Shown: one piece after another, positions 22,888-60,102 of the stretch
How the letters are laid out: every line of letters starts with the position of its first letter
Position numbering within the stretch: the stretch's first letter is position 1
From: Dissulfurimicrobium hydrothermale
Lineage (GTDB): Bacteria > Desulfobacterota > Dissulfuribacteria > Dissulfuribacterales > Sh68
Direction: 5' to 3'
Assembly (NCBI RefSeq): GCF_022026155.1
Contig: NZ_CP085041.1
Coordinates: 218,306 to 282,305, forward strand
DNA: 64,000 nucleotides
Program-made: the position numbers and the translations under genes
Notes under the pieces: generated by a model
The model's input: the letters and a program-made list of their open reading frames with translations, nothing else
The model's database searches: none
What the model was told of the DNA's origin: nothing

Positions 22888-23982
22888 ATGATGAGCATCG
22901 CCCCTATCAGGTTCAAGACACCCATTGCAATCGGCACAGCGTCACAAAACAGATACCATATGCAGCTCAATGGGTTCGGCGCTGTCAATTCCTTTAACGC
23001 TGCCCTGGCCAGCGCAAAAGAAAATGCTATGCCGAATGACCATACTGCCACGATGCAGGCAGGTAAAAATTTCCATGCCGAAGACGCGGCGTCGACCAAT
23101 GCGCCGCCGAACGCGCCAGCCGAATCAATGTCGGACAACCTTGCAAAGGTTATGGCAGCACTTGAACAGGAGCGCTTTCTGGCCTTTCTGCTTACTAGAC
23201 TCGGCCAGGTCCCGACAGCTCAGGATCAGGGCGCAGTTATGGATATTGCAGAGGCGCCGCAGGTGATCTCTTTCCAAACACAGGCGATCCATGTACCAGC
23301 CGCACATGACACCGCTGCAAGCAGTATCCATGGCGACACCTTGGAAGATACCGGGCATGGAGAAATAGGAAGGCTTTCGGCTGAATTTGAATCTGGCAAT
23401 CAAGGTCCTGGAACAATAGGTTATGATGAAACAGGCGGAACGTCCTATGGGACATACCAGATTTCAAGCCGCCGAGGTACCTTTAACCGTTTCATCTCAT
23501 TTCTTGAAAAATACGCCCCTGACTATGCAGCAAGACTTAAGGCCGCCGGGAACCCGGATACAGGCGGAAAGTCAGGCAAGGTCCCGCAGGAATGGCAGAG
23601 GATCGCAAAGGAAGATCCAGGGGGCTTTGAGGCCCTGCAGCGACAATTCATCAAAGACACCCACTACGGCCCAGCGCTTCAAAAAATCGCCCAGAACACT
23701 GGTATCGACCTGAGTGAAAGGTCATCCGCACTTAAAGAGGTGCTGTGGAGTACATCTGTCCAACATGGGCCTGACGGGGCCGCCAGGATATTCAAGAAGG
23801 CCATTGAAGGCCTCAGGGCCAAAGGCGATCTCTCCGATCAGGCCATCATAAATGCCGTATATGACATAAGAGGCCGCCAGTTCGGTTCTTCTGCCCAGCA
23901 GGTGCAACAGGCTATAACCAGAAGGTTTTCAGAGGAGAAGGTGGCGGCCCTTGGTATCCTGAAAGACAATATCAGCGTTTAA
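22888..23982 (+). CDS. VgrG3-C-like muramidase/peptidoglycan hydrolase with disordered N-terminus
   Basis: The C-terminal ~200 residues (from about 155) begin LSAEFESGNQGPGTIGYDETGGTSYGTYQIS, the lysozyme-like fold seen in the effector end of VgrG3-type proteins and some phage endolysins, with a likely catalytic Glu in FESG. The first ~150 residues are low-complexity, Ala/Asn/Glu-rich and probably disordered; no signal peptide is visible. No type VI secretion or phage structural genes are near. GGAGGC precedes ATGATG. It may be a phage-derived or flagellum/pilus-associated wall hydrolase. Confidence 0.65.
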   Translation: MMSIAPIRFKTPIAIGTASQNRYHMQLNGFGAVNSFNAALASAKENAMPNDHTATMQAGKNFHAEDAASTNAPPNAPAESMSDNLAKVMAALEQERFLAFLLTRLGQVPTAQDQGAVMDIAEAPQVISFQTQAIHVPAAHDTAASSIHGDTLEDTGHGEIGRLSAEFESGNQGPGTIGYDETGGTSYGTYQISSRRGTFNRFISFLEKYAPDYAARLKAAGNPDTGGKSGKVPQEWQRIAKEDPGGFEALQRQFIKDTHYGPALQKIAQNTGIDLSERSSALKEVLWSTSVQHGPDGAARIFKKAIEGLRAKGDLSDQAIINAVYDIRGRQFGSSAQQVQQAITRRFSEEKVAALGILKDNISV

Positions 23983-24093: not shown

Positions 24094-24303
24094 ATGGATT
24101 ACAATATTGAATATGAACAAGAGGAAGACGGCCGCTGGATAGCCGAGGTGCCCGGACTTCCAGGTGTCCTTGCTTACGGCAAAACTGCAAAAGAAGCGAT
24201 GGCCAAGGCAGAAGCCCTGGCCCTTCGCGTTATGGCGGAACGTATTGAAACAAACGAAAGCCAGCCCGTTCCCGTATCCTTCAATTTTGCAGCACCCGCA
24301 TGA
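24094..24303 (+). CDS. HicB-like antitoxin domain protein, orphan
   Basis: The 69-residue protein has the HicB fold signature: YNIEYEQEEDGRWIAEVPGLPGVLAYGKTAKEAMAKAEALALRVMAERIE. No HicA toxin reading frame lies on either side, so this is a solitary HicB-like protein. It has no DNA-binding C-terminal HTH; the HTH encoded just downstream is separate. GGAG lies 9 bp upstream of the ATG. It sits at the left edge of the defence-like helicase cassette. Confidence 0.8.
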   Translation: MDYNIEYEQEEDGRWIAEVPGLPGVLAYGKTAKEAMAKAEALALRVMAERIETNESQPVPVSFNFAAPA

Positions 24304-24352
24304 GAATGAGACAGGATACTGTCGACTATATTTGGTTTGTGTGAATTTAAAA

Positions 24353-24508
24353 ATGAGGCGGGCCAAGCTGTACCGCATGGCCCAAGATGGGGACATTCCG
24401 ACTTCCAAGGTCGGCAACCAATGGCGCTTCGACCGAGATGGAATCGACCAGTGGATGAAAAGTCAGAGGCCAGTGACGGGTAAGGTGCCAACCGGAGGAA
24501 CAGAATGA
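24353..24508 (+). CDS. Truncated excisionase-type helix-turn-helix protein
   Basis: The 51-residue reading (MRRAKLYRMAQDGDIPTSKVGNQWRFDRDGIDQWM) is the C-terminal two-thirds of an HTH_17/excisionase-family domain; the usual first helix (a 'LTVEEVAEYL'-type segment) is missing. Its stop overlaps the ATG of the helicase gene in an ATGA arrangement, so translation is probably coupled. Either it is a decayed regulator or the true start is a non-standard codon upstream in the same frame. Confidence 0.5.
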   Translation: MRRAKLYRMAQDGDIPTSKVGNQWRFDRDGIDQWMKSQRPVTGKVPTGGTE

Positions 24509-27500
24509 ATCCCTCCTCAACTCAAAGCTCGAATGAAAAAGCCGTTCGATTGGTCGATTATCTGCTTCGATTGGCGTCATTACGCACCAAGTTGATCCGC
24601 GACGTTGATGAATACGAGAAAGTGCTTTGGGTGTCGAAGGTTCCGAATGAGCGAGGTTGCTTCACACAGGCTTGGGGGAGCGATGAAGAACATGAACCGG
24701 ACGAATGGCTGGAAGTTCAAAACCGGCATGAGCCGGAATTGCCTGCTGTTCCTGCTCAATGCAAAGACTGGGTGAACCAAGAGGCGCTCCGCAACAAGAA
24801 CGACCTGCCCGGACTCTTCCCGGAAATCCAGCGGCAAATCCAGAATCCTGATTGGCGCGAGGGATCGGATCAGCCGGAAACCATCCCGCATACTGAACGC
24901 CTTGAGGATCATCCCGAGGTTCAACAAGCATGGAATCGCTATGTCGAAGACAAATGGTTGCCCTGGACGGAAGAGCACAATGCATGGGAAAAGGTCCACA
25001 AGGTCTATTCCTCTCTCTTTGCCATCCATCAAGAACAGCTCCGGCTCGGCGAGGAATACGAACTGGTGCTCGGTTTGGGATTGCTGACATGGCAAACACC
25101 CACCGGGCAGCGCGCCCGACGTCATTTGGTTGTCGCCGACGCCATTCTGGAGTTTGAAGCCCGCCTGGGGAAATTCACCGTCCGTCCCCACACCGAGGGT
25201 GCCAAGCTGCGCCTTGAACTCGATATGCTGGACATCGAGGAGCAACCGGCGCGCGCGGAGGAAACCGCAAAGGCGTCACTGGCTGCGGCCGAAGACGATC
25301 CGTGGGAAAAGGGTTGTGTCGAAGGCGTCCTTCAGGCCCTGGTGCATTCGATCAACTCACAGGGCGATTATGAGGGTGCTCTTGAAGCCAAGAACATCCG
25401 CGCCTCGGCAAAGCCCATCGTAGAATACGCCCCCGCCTTGATTCTGCGAAAACGTTCCGCCAAAGGTCTTGCCGAAACCTTGAAACGGATCAAGGAGCAG
25501 ATAGAAAACGGGGAAGACGTTCCCTGTGAATTTGCGGACCTTGCGGAGATTCGCCCGAATAACGATCGCGCAACGGGCGATGGCCCGGAGGAGGCCAACG
25601 TCCCGTTCGATAGTGAAATCTTCTTCCCAAAGCCATCCACGATGAGCAGCGCCTGATTGTTGACAAGATTCGAGCGGCAAGCGGTGTGCTGGTCCAAGGG
25701 CCGCCCGGCACTGGGAAATCTCATACCATCGCCAATCTGATTTGCCATCTGCTTGCCACAGGACAGCGAACGCTGATCACGGCGAAGACGCCTCGCGCTC
25801 TTCAGGTTCTTGAAGGACTTGTGCCTGTTGAGTTACGGCCTCTTTGCATCAATCTGCTTGGTAGCGGACTTGGAGAACGCCGCTCTCTCGAATCCAGCGT
25901 TGGCGGCATTCTCCGCAAGAATGAGGAGTGGAACGAAGATCGCGCCGGGCGAGAGCGCACGGGACTTGAAGAGCGCCTTCAGAATCTCCGTGAAGAGAAG
26001 GCCAAGGTCAACCGCCGGCTCCGCGACATCAGGGAGTCCGAGACTCATACGCAGTCCGTCGCGGAGGGAGCCTATCGAGGGACGGCGGCGAGAATCGCTG
26101 AAGCTGTGAACCAGCATCGCACCGACTACGAATGGTTCGCGGATTCCGTTCCTTTAGACAAGACGTGTCAGATCTCCACAGACACTTTGCGAAGCGTTCT
26201 CTCGGCTTTGCGCCAATTCACGCCAGAGAAGCGCCAGGAATTGGGCCTTGCATGGCCTGAGGAGTTGCCATCCCCTGAGCAATTTGCCAAACTCGTAGGG
26301 AATGAAACCAGCGCGACTGAAGAAGAGCAAAACTCGGCTCGCGGGGCCGATGAACATATCGCCAATCTTTTGGAACGAAACAATCCTCTGGCCATCGAGG
26401 CGATCCTTAACGCTTTCTCAACGTTCCGTGACACTCGCAGGAGACTCCTCGCAATGCCGCATTCATGGATGATCGATGCCTTGCGCGATATTCTGGGCGG
26501 TAATTCGTCCCTGTGGCATGAGCTTTTCCGTGTTACACGAGACGTTATTGCGTCAATCGAAGCACTCGTTGCGGTCGCTGACGAGACCCGAATCGAATTC
26601 CCGGACACTACCGATATCAGATCCTTGTATGAAGACGGCGGGAAACTGAAAGAGCACATGGAGAACGGCGGGAAACTGGGTTGGGGGTTGTTTCGGCCTA
26701 AACCGGTGAAAGAGCGGTTATACGTTATCAAGGCCGTGAAGATTGGCGGCCGCCCATGCTCCACGGTCGAACATTTCTCAACTCTTGCCGAGGCACTGTA
26801 CGTTCGCATTGAATGCGAGAAGGCGTGGGGGTTCTGGAATGGGCGAAGTGAAAAGGTTGAAGGCCGTACACTCTCCAACTGACCGCCCTCAAGTCATTGT
26901 GCGATGCGCTCAAAAACGCCCTGGCGCTTGAGGAACTCATTGCCAAATGCCAAGAAGCGATAAAACAATGTTCAGGCATGGGCGAACCCGTATGGGCCGA
27001 CGAATCCCAGATTGAAAGGGTTATCTCCTCGTGTCGCCTTGCATTGGCCCGTATCCGCAAGCGGCGCGCCATCGAGGAAATTCAGAGTATTGAGACCACG
27101 ATCTCACTCATGGCTGCCAGTGGCGACACGCATCCGGTGACAAACGATTTGCTGAGCGCCGTGCACAGCCGCGACGTGGAAAAGTTCGCACGATGCGTGA
27201 ATACGATTCAAGATTTGACAAATGAGCGTCAGTGCCTTCAGAAAATGGACGATGATCTGTCAGATTTGCGCCGTTTGCTCCCGCAGTTCACAAAATCCTT
27301 GGAACAAACCTGCAACGATCCTTATTGGGAGGAGCGAGTCCAGCATATCAATGACGCCTGGCATTGGGCCCAGGCGCGGTACTGGCTCGAGGATTACATC
27401 CGGCAGGAAGACGTTCCAGCGCTCGCCAAACGCGCCAAACAAATCGAGGACGAGATCAACAACATTATAGCGAAGCTTGCCGCGCTTCACGCCTGGTCGT

Positions 27501-29296
27501 TCTGTTTCTCGCGGCTCAAGAAAGACCATTGCGGTCACATGGCAGCTTGGCAACTGTCCATGCGGAAACTTGGCAAAGGGACGGGAAAGCACGCGCCGCA
27601 TCACCGACGTGAAGCGCAAGAACATTTGAATAAATGCCGTGAGGCGGTTCCGGCATGGGTCATGCCGCTCCATCGCGTTTGGGACACGGTGTCTCCCGCG
27701 CCCGGCATGTTCGATGTGATTATCGTTGACGAGGCTTCGCAATGTGGCTTCGAAGCCCTCCCCTTGTTCTATCTGGGAAAGAAGATAGTGATCGTTGGCG
27801 ATGACAAGCAGATCAGCCCAGACGCTGTGGGTTTGCCCCGCGATCCGGTGCATCGCCTGATGGAAGAATTCCTTCACGATTTCCAGTTCAGGTCGTCGTT
27901 CGATATTGAGAGCAGCCTATTCGATCACGGGAAACTTCGGTATGGAACCAGACGTATAACGCTGCGGGAGCATTTCCGCTGTATGCCGGAGATCATTCGA
28001 TTCAGCAACAATCTGTGCTATTCGGATACTCCGCTGATCCCCTTGCGGCAATATGGCCCGAACCGCCTGCCTCCGCTCGACCATGTCTTTGTGAAAGGCG
28101 GATATCGTGAGGGCTCGAACAACCGTGCGATCAACCGTCCGGAGGCCGAAGCCATCGTTGAGAGAATTGCAGAGATGAGCGGCGACAGTCGTTATGACGG
28201 CAAGACGATGGGCGTGGTAGTGCTTCAAGGTGAGGCGCAAGCGGCTTTGATCGAGAGTCAATTGCTCGAACGATTGGGCGCCGAGGAAATGGAGCGGCGC
28301 CGCTTGATCTGCGGCAATCCCTACAGTTTCCAGGGCGACGAGCGAGACATCATGTTTCTGTCGCTTGTCGCTGCCAGCAACGAAAGAATCGGTCCCCTCA
28401 CAAAAGCGGTGGATGAGCGACGTTTCAATGTCGCGGCCAGCCGCGCCCGTGACATGATGATTCTTTTCCACTCGGTCACTTGTGACGATCTCAGCGCCTT
28501 GTGTCTTCGACGTCAGTTGCTTGAGTTCTTCGAGAACACGAAACCGCAACAGATCGCCGGAATCGAGCGGGACGAATTGGAGCGGCGAGCGGCCCAGGAC
28601 AACCGGCGCGTTGTGAGTCCTCCCGCACCATTCGAAAGTTGGTTCGAGGTTGACATCGCCTTGGAACTTCTTCGCAGGGATTTCACGGTGCTTGCCCAGC
28701 ATGAAGTCGCAGGCAAGCGGATTGATCTCGTGGTCGAGGGCGGACAAGCGCGTCTGGCGGTCGAGTGCGACGGCGACCGTTGGCATGGCGCTGACCGCTA
28801 TGAAGACGACATGCAACGCCAGCGACAATTGGAGCGTTGCGGATGGGAGTTCTTCCATGTCAGGGAATCGGCATTTTACTCAAACAAGGTGGATGCCTTG
28901 AATGGTCTTTGGAATGCACTAGATAAAAGAGATATTTATCCGCAATATGTTGATGTTTCAAAAGAATCAAGTACATACTCATTTTTGAGACGCAAGACGA
29001 AGCGACCGAGCAAGAACCCCCGAGAAAGCGAGCCCGATAGGTCTATTCATGGGTCAGAGATCGATATCAAAGTCGAAGTTGAGGATACCGTAGTTTATGT
29101 AGATATTGAAAATCCTCAGGACGAAAAGCAGGCATTAATAACTTATGAAAGATCAAATCCGGAATGCGGGGCTATCAATATCAACACGCCAATCGCAAGA
29201 GCGCTTTTAGGTAAGCCATTAAACTCCATCGTTGAGGCAAAGTTACCCAAAGGAACGGTCTCGTTACGCATCAAAGACATTAAGAAGCCAGTCTAA
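24505..29296 (+). pseudogene. SF1 helicase fused to MTES_1575-type nuclease and GreA-like C-terminus; two frameshifts
   Basis: Three consecutive open stretches (24505-25656, about 25640-26882, about 26870-29296) make one protein of about 1,590 residues if one base is restored near 25640 and one near 26870. Restoration gives continuous sequence (PKPS then DEQRLIVDKIRAASGVLVQGPPGTGKS). It carries Walker A GPPGTGKS, VIIVDEASQCG, GDDKQISP, and UPF1-like SFQGDERDIMFLSLV and FNVAASRARD. The nuclease domain has KRIDLVV and AVECDGDRWHG, like the MTES_1575 restriction-endonuclease family. The end (VEVEDTVVYVDI to INTPIARALLGK) resembles the GreA/GreB C-terminal domain. It is probably a phage-defence protein, inactive unless the shifts are sequencing errors. 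Confidence 0.82.
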
Positions 29297-29317: not shown

Positions 29318-30241
29318 TCAATTGCAGGTCGACGAGCTCTCCGATCCCCTGCTAGATGCCGAACTTGAAGGGGTGAGACAATGGCCATCCGCAAAGGCAA
29401 AACGTATCACCCTGAGACTCAGATCAACGGCCCTGGCCGAGTGGGTGAGCGCCCCTGCAGACACGATATCGACCCCGGTTCCGGCCACATCCCTTACGTT
29501 TTCAAGGCAAACGCCGCCCGAGGCCTCGAGCAGGAGGCCTGGCTTTAAACCGCGGGCCATGGCCACGGCCTCTGTCAAGGTCTTGACATCCATGTTGTCC
29601 AAAAGCACTGCATCCGCCCCGGCATCGATGGCCTCCTTTAGTTCATCCAGGGTACTGACCTCGATTTCGATCTTGAGCGTATGTGGACATGAGGCCCTGA
29701 CCTTTGACAAGGCCTCTTTTATGGAACCGCAGGCCGCTATGTGGTTGTCCTTTATGAGGATGCCGTCTGAAAGCCCATAGCGGTGGTTGAAGCCGCCCCC
29801 TGCCCGCACCGCGTATTTTTCAAGCACCCTCAGGCACGGGGTGGTCTTTCTGGTATCAACAAGGCGGCAGGGGAGGCCGCCTATCTTCTCTACAAAGTGC
29901 CTGGTCAGGGTTGCAATGCCGCAGAGCCGCTGCAGGAAATTCAAGGCCGTGCGCTCCGCCTGAAGGATGGCCTGGAGACTGCCCTGTATCTCCATCACCA
30001 CATCGCCGCTGTTGGCCCTTGCGCCCTCATTAAGGGCCATCGGGAAGCTGCAATCCGGGTCGCACTGCAAAAAGGCCTCTTCAGCGACAAATATCCCGGC
30101 AACGACACAGTCTTCCTTGGCAACGACAACGGCACGGCCCTTGACATCCCGCGGCACGCAAAGCGAAGTAGTGATATCCCCGTGCCCGATATCCTCACGG
30201 AGCGCCTGCGCCACTATCCCTTCATAGAAACGCCTGTCCAT
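29318..30241 (-). CDS. nadC: Nicotinate-nucleotide pyrophosphorylase (carboxylating)
   Basis: The 307-residue enzyme makes nicotinate mononucleotide from quinolinate and PRPP in NAD synthesis. Family signatures are EDIGHGDITT, AERTALNFLQRLCGIAT, VDTRKTTPCLRVLEKYAVRAGGG, DGILIKDNHI and the C-terminal LLEASGGV, SAGALTHSA. The last ~25 residues (a serine-rich tail after VDLSLRVIRF) exceed the usual family end and lie only 21 bp from the convergent helicase cassette; the 3' end may have been rewritten by that insertion. The start overlaps the end of valS by 20 bp. Confidence 0.95.
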   Translation of the reverse strand: MDRRFYEGIVAQALREDIGHGDITTSLCVPRDVKGRAVVVAKEDCVVAGIFVAEEAFLQCDPDCSFPMALNEGARANSGDVVMEIQGSLQAILQAERTALNFLQRLCGIATLTRHFVEKIGGLPCRLVDTRKTTPCLRVLEKYAVRAGGGFNHRYGLSDGILIKDNHIAACGSIKEALSKVRASCPHTLKIEIEVSTLDELKEAIDAGADAVLLDNMDVKTLTEAVAMARGLKPGLLLEASGGVCLENVRDVAGTGVDIVSAGALTHSARAVDLSLRVIRFAFADGHCLTPSSSASSRGSESSSTCN

Positions 30242-57935: not shown

Positions 57936-58074
57936 GATATAGAAACAAAGATTGCTTATTTTGTCAAGACTAAAAATTATCTAAAATTATCTATCTAAAA
58001 ACCCTGTCTGCCCGCGCCGCCCTGAGATCTGTAAGTCGAGCGGAACATACGGAACCTCGTTCAGTTGTGGAATT

Positions 58075-59307
58075 TCAGATGGTCCGCAAATAGTCACAGG
58101 ATTTAAAATGGAATAATATCCCATCAATTTTTTGTCCCATTTTAAATTTACTATTTGCCGGTATCATTGCATATCCATCTGCCTGGCTGACGCTTGATAT
58201 TGCCCCGGAGTGTTTAAATGTGTTTTCAGCGTAAACCTTTCCTTCTGCCTCTTTAAGTTTAAACGGCATTAAAGTATCTCTATCACCTGTTTCAACATCG
58301 TTATCTAAGATTGCAGAAATTCTTTTTTCTTTAAATTTCAGGCGTGATTTTTTAAACAAAATTGGAAGGAATAATGCATCGATTATTATAAATGCTGACG
58401 TAGGGTTGCCGGGTAAACCAATGATAGATTTGTCTTTAACTTTTCCAAAAAATGTTGGTTTCCCTGGTTTAATAAAAAGTTTATGAAATAACATATCACC
58501 TTTTTCTTCAATAATTTTATATGCTATATCTTTATCTCCCATTGATGTCCCGCCAGTCATTATCATTATATCTATTTCATCATCTTGCCAGGCTCTTTCC
58601 AAAATTTTATCTATATCTTCTTTAACATCATTTACAATCCCATAATGTTTTATAGTAAAAAAACCCGCTAACATAGATTTGATGATATAGGAATTAGAAT
58701 CGTAAATTTTCCCGTTTTTCAGTTCTCTTTCGTGTACCCCATTTAGAGGAATAATTTCGTCTCCAGTTATCAAAATTCCGATCTTAAATTTGCCGTATAC
58801 TTCTATTTTTGCATTTCCATTTGCTGCAAGAAGCCCTATTTTTGGCGGAGTTAATATTTCCCCTTTGTTTACAATTTTCTCTCCTTTTTTGACATCGCTT
58901 CCAATATCATCGTAATTTTTGTTATTACTTGTTTTTAATATTACTATTTTATCTTCATTTATAATTTGTGTATCTTCTATCATGATAACCATAGTGCAGT
59001 TTTGTGGTAATTTGCAACCTGTTGCAACCTTTATACATTCGCCTCTTCGCACTGCAATCTCTGAAATTTCTCCAGCATCAATTGCATCCACTATCTTTAA
59101 TCCTTTTTCCATTCCCCCTTTTATATCTTCACTTCGTATGGCAAATCCATCTACTGCACATCTCTTGAAATTTAAAATATTTTCTTTAGCAAAGACATCT
59201 TTAGCACAGACCCTCATCAGTGCTTTATCAAGTTCAATTTCTTCTGTTTTATCTATCATTGGCAAATTCTTATCAATAATGTCTTTTGCATCGTTAAACG
59301 ATATCAT
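58075..59307 (-). CDS. moeA: Molybdopterin molybdenumtransferase
   Basis: The 410-residue protein has MoeA motifs: CAVDGFAIRSEDI, ATGCKLPQN, ILITGDEIIPL, MIMTGGTSMGDKD, IGLPGNPTSAF and a C-terminal domain IV. It inserts molybdate into adenylated molybdopterin for the formate dehydrogenase encoded next door. Its DNA is strikingly A+T-rich and its protein Lys/Ile/Asn-rich compared with genes left of 57 kb, suggesting transfer. Confidence 0.94.
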   Translation of the reverse strand: MISFNDAKDIIDKNLPMIDKTEEIELDKALMRVCAKDVFAKENILNFKRCAVDGFAIRSEDIKGGMEKGLKIVDAIDAGEISEIAVRRGECIKVATGCKLPQNCTMVIMIEDTQIINEDKIVILKTSNNKNYDDIGSDVKKGEKIVNKGEILTPPKIGLLAANGNAKIEVYGKFKIGILITGDEIIPLNGVHERELKNGKIYDSNSYIIKSMLAGFFTIKHYGIVNDVKEDIDKILERAWQDDEIDIMIMTGGTSMGDKDIAYKIIEEKGDMLFHKLFIKPGKPTFFGKVKDKSIIGLPGNPTSAFIIIDALFLPILFKKSRLKFKEKRISAILDNDVETGDRDTLMPFKLKEAEGKVYAENTFKHSGAISSVSQADGYAMIPANSKFKMGQKIDGILFHFKSCDYLRTI

Positions 59308-59340
59308 TTTAGATAGTTATTCTCCTTTTTCAGGTTATGA

Positions 59341-60102
59341 TTATTGAATGATACGCCAAGGAGCATGAAAGATATTGACCCTATCTGGCCTGGCATATCC
59401 AATCAGTGTAATATTTGCCCGCCTTGCGATTTCAAGCGCAAGCGATGATGGGGCAGTCCGTGACATGACAATTGGTATGCCTAACTGCGCACATTTAAGA
59501 ACCATATCCGATGTCAATCGGCCTGTAGTATATATCGCCCCATTGGGCGATAATTTGTTCAAGAGAATAGCACCGATAATTTTGTCCACAGCATTGTGTC
59601 TTCCGATGTCTTCATAACAGAGTTTAGTTTTATCTTCAGACCAAAACCCACATGTGTGAACACAGTGGGTTTCCTGTTGTAAGCTTGAGTAATGGAGTAC
59701 CTCTGTAATAAATTGTCTGATATCCTGAAGTGTTATAGTGTATTCTTGAACTTTATTAAAAATGTCTTTCAGCATCTCTCTCGCAATCCTTCCTGTGCCA
59801 CCACATCCTGAAGTAACAATCATCTCTTTTGGCTCTATGCTTTCTATGTCTGCATAGACAGCTATGCTACCTTCTTGGCATATATATATCTCTTTCACTT
59901 CATCATGAATAGATATATACCCTTGTCCAAATAAAAAACCAACGGCAAACTCTTTAAGTCCGACAGGAAGCAGCATTGAAGAAGCAGTGTATTTATCATT
60001 TAAGAATACTTGATAAGGAACTTCTATGGCTAAATTTTCGTCCCTATATGTTTCTTCCTTTGGTTCAAGAATAAGAGTTTGAGCTTCTATCTTTAGTTCC
60101 AT
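59341..60102 (-). CDS. fdhD: Formate dehydrogenase accessory sulfurtransferase
   Basis: The 253-residue protein has IAVEVPYQVFLNDKYTA, SGCGGTGRIARE and HTCGFWSEDKTKLCYEDIGRHNAVDKIIG, the FdhD signature. It moves sulfur from IscS to the molybdenum cofactor of formate dehydrogenase. Only one cysteine stands in the SGCGGTG loop, where E. coli has CxxC; single-Cys versions are known in other bacteria. It shares the A+T-rich composition of moeA. Confidence 0.94.
   Translation of the reverse strand: MELKIEAQTLILEPKEETYRDENLAIEVPYQVFLNDKYTASSMLLPVGLKEFAVGFLFGQGYISIHDEVKEIYICQEGSIAVYADIESIEPKEMIVTSGCGGTGRIAREMLKDIFNKVQEYTITLQDIRQFITEVLHYSSLQQETHCVHTCGFWSEDKTKLCYEDIGRHNAVDKIIGAILLNKLSPNGAIYTTGRLTSDMVLKCAQLGIPIVMSRTAPSSLALEIARRANITLIGYARPDRVNIFHAPWRIIQ

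Follow-up and report, generated by a model that had tools for sequence, protein, structure and literature searches.

A GreA/GreB-type domain as an exchangeable tail of a phage-borne helicase–nuclease, with a decayed copy in Dissulfurimicrobium hydrothermale

Why should a helicase–nuclease end in a domain of the transcription factors GreA and GreB? The question is raised by a stretch of 64,000 nucleotides from Dissulfurimicrobium hydrothermale (contig NZ_CP085041.1; hereafter the window, whose numbering is used throughout). At positions 24505–29296 an earlier note, made from the sequence alone, had described a UPF1-like superfamily 1 (SF1) helicase followed by an MTES_1575-type nuclease and a Gre-like tail, and had proposed that the tail could tie a DNA-cutting defence enzyme to transcription complexes. 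The three parts and their order are borne out: the open frame at 26897–29296 on the forward strand carries the Pfam families AAA_12 (E 2.6e-15), MTES_1575 (PF18741) and, at its end, GreA_GreB (PF01272), and the same order is kept in at least 11 other genes. Both residue strings that the note had quoted lie in this frame. Two points go beyond that description, namely that the gene is phage-borne cargo and that its tail belongs to a set of exchangeable modules. The tie to transcription complexes, which we infer from homology, would be made by this tail.

That the last ~75 residues are the C-terminal domain of GreA/GreB, and that the architecture is as described, is close to certain. The PF01272 match covers residues 729–800 of the translated frame and scores 40.8 bits (cut-off 26.9), with an E value of 7.1e-12 when the last 117 residues are scanned alone. 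A profile built from 12 tails and compared with 177,635 PDB sequences matched only E. coli GreA (E 1.2e-7) and GreB (E 0.0023) at E ≤ 0.01. Structure prediction, the check that the earlier note had put forward, gave a Gre fold: the AlphaFold model of the tail has a predicted local distance difference test (pLDDT) score of about 90–94 from about residue 41 onward, and its top PDB fold matches are Gre/Gfh1 proteins (Z 12.0–13.2 for the first five), with ordinary FKBPs at ~7. The globular region of HelD matches the model weakly (6wvk_H, Z 7.5), a large insertion lying outside the model. In the window protein the Gre domain is preceded by the linker and the nuclease and ends the polypeptide. The identity of the protein as a GreA factor was ruled out, the N-terminal coiled coil with its acidic tip residues being absent, and the genome has a separate, ordinary greA elsewhere.

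The tail aligns nearly gap-free with the C-termini of 19 ordinary GreA proteins. The GreA stretch I-S-x-x-S-P, whose final SP is present in 19/19 of the sampled GreA proteins, reads TPIA in 12/12 tails. Contact residues in GreB include D121 and P123. Purifying selection acts on the tail: the ratio of nonsynonymous to synonymous substitution rates (dN/dS) is 0.08–0.19 in 10 of 13 pairs and 0.49 in one, two being not computable. The tails form a single clade against GreA with a support of 100/100, which suggests that the Gre domain was acquired once by this enzyme family. These observations bear on whether the Gre-type domain has lost RNA polymerase (RNAP) binding and serves only folding, stability or protein contact. 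Such a loss would sit well with the change of serine to threonine in all 12 tails, with the missing coiled coil and with the wide use of the FKBP-like fold as a common frame; it is opposed by the close alignment to GreA, the retention of P-I-A in 12/12 tails and the purifying selection, and we regard it as improbable.

The earlier note had treated 24505–29296 as one gene, and this did not hold for the window copy: it is one SF1 helicase–nuclease spread over three frames with no single open gene, and homologues match it as three pieces (about 24499–25716, 25617–26864 and 26864–29290, in frames 1, 3 and 2). No Pfam family matched the N-terminal part (24505..25656). Immediately upstream lies the remnant of a small helix-turn-helix (HTH) gene of the HTH_17 type, the Pfam profile match to which shows that the initial domain residues are gone and the 5′ part is missing. 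The remnant is 60% identical over 53 residues to the intact HTH gene of the phage contig L143, and its stop overlaps the start of the helicase–nuclease in the sequence ATGA, the same coupling as is found in locus L040. Since the enzyme is read in three frames and the HTH gene lacks its 5′ part, this copy has either become a pseudogene or been misread in sequencing, and since the dN/dS of its core against that of L054 (0.14) is within the range of the other 14 pairs (0.05–0.18), the frame breaks are either recent or sequencing errors. The broken state of this copy could be taken to favour a chance join or an artefact, a reading that we reject as having next to no probability, given that the order recurs in eleven more genes, of which several are intact, and in one intact copy on a phage contig.

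The window gene is a decayed relic of phage cargo. Downstream of it lies a scrap of a phage minor head gene (29328–29374) in the same order and orientation as in the phage contig L143. Thirteen locus entries, representing 10 distinct contigs, match the scrap at E<1e-6, whereas in a control 0/254 other pieces of the window reached E ≤ 1e-6 against that phage set. The neighbouring nadC frame (29318–30241) has a 3′ end lengthened by reading into the phage scrap, and relatives of nadC align only to residue 280 of a 282-residue query from which the added end had been left off.

Intact homologues of ~1,600 residues exist, and intact relatives keep the same tail, as the earlier note had asked of homologues. 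Among 247 genomes of the phylum, the tail is kept in two full-length homologues and one fragment (L002, L004 and L010), and others end differently. A scan across 84,980 species returned 80 loci, with 11 distinct Gre-tailed genes besides the window (L031, L033, L035, L040, L041, L042, L043, L044, L045, L047 and L048) once duplicates had been removed (L046, L049, L050, L067 and L082, of L035, L031, L033, L032 and L034, respectively). The record titles of these 11 genes name Synergistaceae, Pseudomonadota, Hydrogenedentes, Deltaproteobacteria, Nitrospinota, Planctomycetota and Zixiibacteriota, including the isolates Stenoxybacter acetivorans (Pseudomonadota) and Dethiosulfatarculus sandiegensis (strain SPR; L044, an intact protein of 1,592 residues), and since some of the records are phage DNA a title does not necessarily name the host. 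Intact Gre-tailed genes are found in L031, L033, L040, L042, L044, L047, L048 and L143 (the last not independent of L041, to which it is 100% identical over 4,566 bp), and partial ones in L035, L041, L043 and L045. The Walker A, DEAS and nuclease motifs are preserved in the 9 Gre-tailed open reading frames that span them; L035 and L045 are without the Walker A part. The distance from Walker A to DEAS is 677–678 residues in L031, L033, L040, L044 and L144 (677 in L031, L040 and L044), and the DEAS at a gap of 201 in L143 is an earlier occurrence within the insertion, not the Walker B distance. The nuclease motif, whose residues we take to form a Vsr active site, is intact in the window copy as well as in relatives. 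No close copy was found in 60 close relatives of the window genome (best non-self match 37% identity, G252). A query of the restriction endonuclease (REase) domain plus the Gre domain had no match in 50,697 phage records and was covered to 80% by 0/45 plasmid records, and the nuclease stretch alone had no sequence relative in the PDB (best E 0.74). Separately, a Gre-type match in a 600-residue open frame (G235:C11:40810-41007) represents another Gre fusion.

The tail is an exchangeable module, because the Gre tails are one clade whilst the enzyme cores that carry them are rejected as one clade. In a quickly built tree of 78 cores (Gre tail 11, winged-helix tail 17, no tail 20, other 30), the ‘no tail’ class is partly an artefact, as it includes frame-broken or cut-looking frames such as L055, L056 and L098. 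In a tree of 36 cores (LG+G4 model; L059 moved by hand from ‘other’ to winged-helix; L035 left out of the trees as too short), forcing the 11 Gre-tailed cores into one clade costs 224 log units (approximately unbiased test, p-AU 3.8e-62). The window itself illustrates the exchange: its core is nearest to that of L054, which has a winged-helix tail (~86% protein and 88.6% DNA identity, synonymous divergence (dS) 0.48), and its tail is nearest to that of L040, with a dS of 0.61 for the tail and 1.27 for the core. The DNA match between the window and L054 spans 24542–28889 and stops at the nuclease, and the exchange boundary is at or just before the linker (28946..29056). The second common tail type is a winged helix behind an acidic linker; a profile search gave no PDB match at E ≤ 0.001, and its VIA-align Z of about 9–10 to many winged helices shows the fold class alone. 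A third type, in L094, L096 and L101, resembles the GyrA C-terminal domain of DNA gyrase (E 9.7e-8 in a profile search of the PDB), with Pfam E values of 0.007–0.016 that are below the cut-off.

Such swapping between near-identical enzymes is also what would be seen were the tail an integrated decoy, that is, a bait bound by phage proteins whose targets are Gre factors or the secondary channel of RNAP, this binding activating the helicase–nuclease, with the other tails as bait for other attackers. Two of the tails copy host information-processing proteins (GreA and, at E 1e-7, the GyrA C-terminal domain), and a flexible linker stands ahead of the tail. The winged-helix tail is, on the other hand, not evidently a copy of a host target, nor is there a known trigger protein. 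Conservation of the TPIA face does not decide between decoy and docking because it is expected under docking too. We consider a decoy unlikely, though not far-fetched.

A scan of IMG/VR gave seven relatives, amongst them a complete enzyme with a Gre tail (L143) and one with a winged-helix tail (L144). Both are located between a D12 DNA methyltransferase gene (phrog_27806) and the minor head gene, after which comes the portal gene; major head and tail-completion genes are present as well on the L143 contig. L040, L041 and L042 adjoin the same head gene (97%, 100% and 71% identity). Amongst 75 viral loci with this head gene, the helicase–nuclease is found only in the L143 and L144 contigs (L152 and L175 in that set), and in 10 sister contigs the methyltransferase gene follows 110–155 bp after the head gene, with the cargo enzyme absent. 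The helicase–nuclease is thus a phage cargo gene, sitting amid structural genes and missing from sister phages. Other phages fill the slot differently: in L153:1968-4709 an HTH gene with 80% identity to that of L143 across 66 residues is followed by genes for an Eco57I-type methylase and for a restriction endonuclease of the BsuBI/PstI type (E 3e-61), L212:16038-17060 holds an AbiEii toxin (E 1.2e-41), and L198:5087-5663 holds ParE with a ribbon-helix-helix protein. A single cargo slot, headed by a similar HTH gene, is thus occupied by a classical restriction system in one of these phages and by the helicase–nuclease in others. The portal protein of this phage group has a match only to phage G, at 24.5%.

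A gene carried by a phage might instead be a takeover tool, one that either breaks host DNA by directing the nuclease to the transcription complexes of the host or, in HelD-like recycling, removes RNAP from phage DNA, for which HelD offers a precedent and the weak match of its globular region to the tail model some support. This is at odds with the orientation of the HTH/enzyme module, which runs opposite to the head genes and has its own HTH gene, with the restriction–modification (R-M) or AbiE cargo held in the slot by sister phages and the lack of the enzyme in others, and with relatives that are placed inside BREX operons. A takeover role is accordingly rated quite unlikely.

Several further features of these phages and their surroundings were recorded. 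The slot of L203:6110-7099 encodes a protein like zinc-dependent phospholipase C. In the sister phage at L162:8002-12687, the minor head protein lies within a 1,561-residue frame, compared with ~280 residues where the cargo is present. At L151:200-3745, beside the phage that carries the Gre-tailed enzyme, are genes for a phage-type integrase, a small multidrug-resistance protein and a P-type ATPase, and pieces of integrase N-termini were found near L031 and L033.

A defence role, as the earlier note had supposed, is likely for the enzyme and is supported by part of the gene neighbourhoods. A 72%-identical relative with a winged-helix tail (L032:11915-16762) lies in a BREX locus, flanked by brxH and pglZ, and L065, with no recognisable tail, has the same placement. 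Neighbours of Gre-tailed genes include the N-terminus of a type I R-subunit (L047), Fic (L043), ParE with Phd (L031) and an AAA_21 and DUF4276 pair (L033), PADLOC matches around them being to SoFic and HEC-01, and the R-M and AbiE genes of the phage slot fit the same role. Other flanks look like housekeeping genes, and a strict defence-island pattern is therefore disfavoured.

How far the enzyme resembles described systems can be judged from published accounts, taken here from excerpts of the papers cited. The MTES_1575-type protein of PMC3710099 consists of HEPN, transglutaminase, SF1 helicase, Vsr REase and two winged-HTH domains. An SF1 helicase followed by a Vsr-type REase is common to it, to Hhe, to PDC-S37 and to the window-type enzyme, and the PADLOC models for PDC-S37 (E 1.1e-39) and Hhe (E 1.1e-20) match over the helicase–nuclease part. 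Unlike the MTES_1575-type protein and Hhe, the window-type enzyme has a Gre tail, is phage-borne and is coupled to an HTH gene, and no HEPN or transglutaminase family was matched in Pfam at E ≤ 0.1 in 5 proteins (2 of them Gre-tailed and intact). The type III-B CoCoNuTs likewise join a UPF1-like SF1 helicase to a Vsr-like nuclease and have a large insertion after Walker A, and the window-type enzyme has all three; CoCoNuTs are McrBC systems that are thought to target RNA (PMC11090510). No McrB or McrC partner was among the families listed (first 25 of 33 and first 25 of 51) for the flank proteins aligned, 66 of 88 around Gre-tailed genes and 92 of 164 around the others. The GreA/B-C domain itself is shared with the TPR-GreA/B-C-PIN conflict protein, in which it is a predicted RNAP hook and the variable effector can be an REase (PMC8195603). 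The window-type enzyme differs from that protein in its SF1 helicase motor, its Vsr-type nuclease and a tail that is itself exchanged, and neither TPR repeats nor a PIN nuclease was found by Pfam in the window frames and 5 homologous proteins. HelD is likewise an SF1-type NTPase, one that acts through the RNAP secondary channel; the excerpts of PMC7749165 describe its Gre-like coiled coil and mention no nuclease, whereas in the window-type enzyme the globular domain is the only Gre part recognised, and it would reach the secondary channel by prediction. The sections of PMC12839542 on BREX accessory nucleases do not name an SF1–Vsr protein, and the two relatives found between brxH and pglZ have a winged-helix tail or none.

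The earlier note knew of no described system with this order, and no description of helicase, MTES_1575 and GreA together was found in the open-access literature; word searches of PMC7159879, PMC10853773 and PMC12839542 gave no match. That statement needs narrowing in that a GreA/B-C RNAP-hook conflict protein is described in the excerpts of PMC8195603. The SF1 helicase–MTES_1575 REase, the helicase–Vsr fusion and the predicted GreA/B-C immune hook are thus already known.

The explanation that we favour, and to which we give an even chance as a whole, is that the window preserves decayed phage defence cargo docked by its tail: a small HTH regulator and a ~1,600-residue protein made up of a UPF1-like SF1 helicase, a Vsr-type nuclease and a linker-borne GreA/GreB C-terminal domain. 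The intact enzyme, produced by a lysogen, would be anti-phage and probably inter-phage, with incoming phage DNA as its target. The Gre globular domain binds the β′ rim helices (PMC7527559, PMC7749165), and the tail would dock at this site by the secondary channel of bacterial RNAP, which we hold to be rather probable. The helicase motor would then engage strands of DNA, RNA or R-loops that become exposed as the incoming DNA is transcribed, and the nuclease would cut at the exposed nucleic acid beside the polymerase; that cutting takes place at transcription complexes is put forward tentatively, at somewhat less than even. The carrier DNA would perhaps be spared by the neighbouring D12 methyltransferase. 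We infer the RNAP docking, the defence role, the order of these steps and the self-sparing. The tail would serve as an exchangeable address label: in relatives whose motor and nuclease are almost unchanged, its place is taken by a winged helix or a GyrA-type propeller, or no recognisable domain follows. Extended to all tails, this becomes a possible but more doubtful picture of transcription-coupled restriction, in which phages swap C-terminal host docking parts and so direct the same cutter to different states of invading DNA: the GreA domain to RNAP, the GyrA propeller to wrapped or supercoiled DNA, and the winged helix to duplex DNA.

Several observations weigh against this explanation. The Gre coiled coil, which contributes to GreA binding, is absent from the tail, no N-terminal Gre coiled-coil family being found in the window frames (E ≤ 10) or in 2 intact Gre-tailed homologues (E ≤ 0.1). 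The Gre serine is replaced by threonine in 12/12 tails, and the residue preceding it varies (N, D or R). The Gre-tailed variant is rare, the tail being found at E ≤ 1e-15 only in the seed genome among 398 Pseudomonadota genomes. Several Gre-tailed flanks are mostly housekeeping, with few of their 66 flank proteins matching PADLOC (E ≤ 1e-10), and BREX placement is seen in two distinct tail-variant loci (L032, L065) and, within the flanks covered, in 0/12 Gre-tailed loci (window included), by which count a BREX component as the general setting is also ruled out.

If the tail does bind RNAP, this would be a DNA-cutting enzyme that locates its target via transcription and not by sequence or modification. 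At a single locus, sister phages naturally bear either a Gre or a winged-helix tail on one and the same motor–nuclease pair. These swaps constitute ready-made controls, and two wild-type genes make the choice of target by the terminal domain testable. The phage slot is in addition a site at which more defence cargo can be sought. The features of the window copy and the GyrA-type relatives are collected in the table.

Table 1. Features of the decayed helicase–nuclease locus in the window, and relatives with a GyrA-type tail
Feature	Position	Strand	Evidence or content
HTH_17 (excisionase-type) partner remnant	24347..24508	+	HTH_17 E 5.8e-10, begins at profile position 11
Helicase–nuclease N-terminal part, frame 1	24505..25656	+	79-83% identity to L040, L054
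Helicase–nuclease middle part, frame 3	25617..26882	+	Walker A GPPGTGKS and start of the large Walker A/Walker B insertion
Helicase–nuclease C-terminal part, frame 2	26864..29296	+	Insertion end, Walker B DEAS, AAA_12, nuclease, linker, Gre tail
MTES_1575 (Vsr-type PD-(D/E)XK) nuclease domain	28643..28921	+	Pfam PF18741 E 1.1e-25; motif RIDLV...ECDGDRWH
Linker of low predicted order, nuclease to tail	28946..29056	+	pLDDT <50 for most of model residues 1-37
GreA/GreB C-terminal domain	29069..29284	+	Pfam PF01272 E 2.2e-10; PDB profile and fold matches
47-bp scrap of phage minor head gene	29328..29374	-	Collinear with phage contig L143, 87% identity, E 5e-10
GyrA-type (beta-propeller) tail relatives	L094:1761-2498, L101:1379-2050, L096:3680-4156

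Elsewhere in the window, 22888–23982 encodes a protein of 364 residues whose C-terminal domain is VgrG3-like (E 9.4e-45), and a small HicB/UPF0150-like open reading frame, below the Pfam cut-offs, lies at 24094–24303. The region 58000–60000 is of low GC content (35.8%) and has genes that, judged by eye, are moeA- and fdhD-like.

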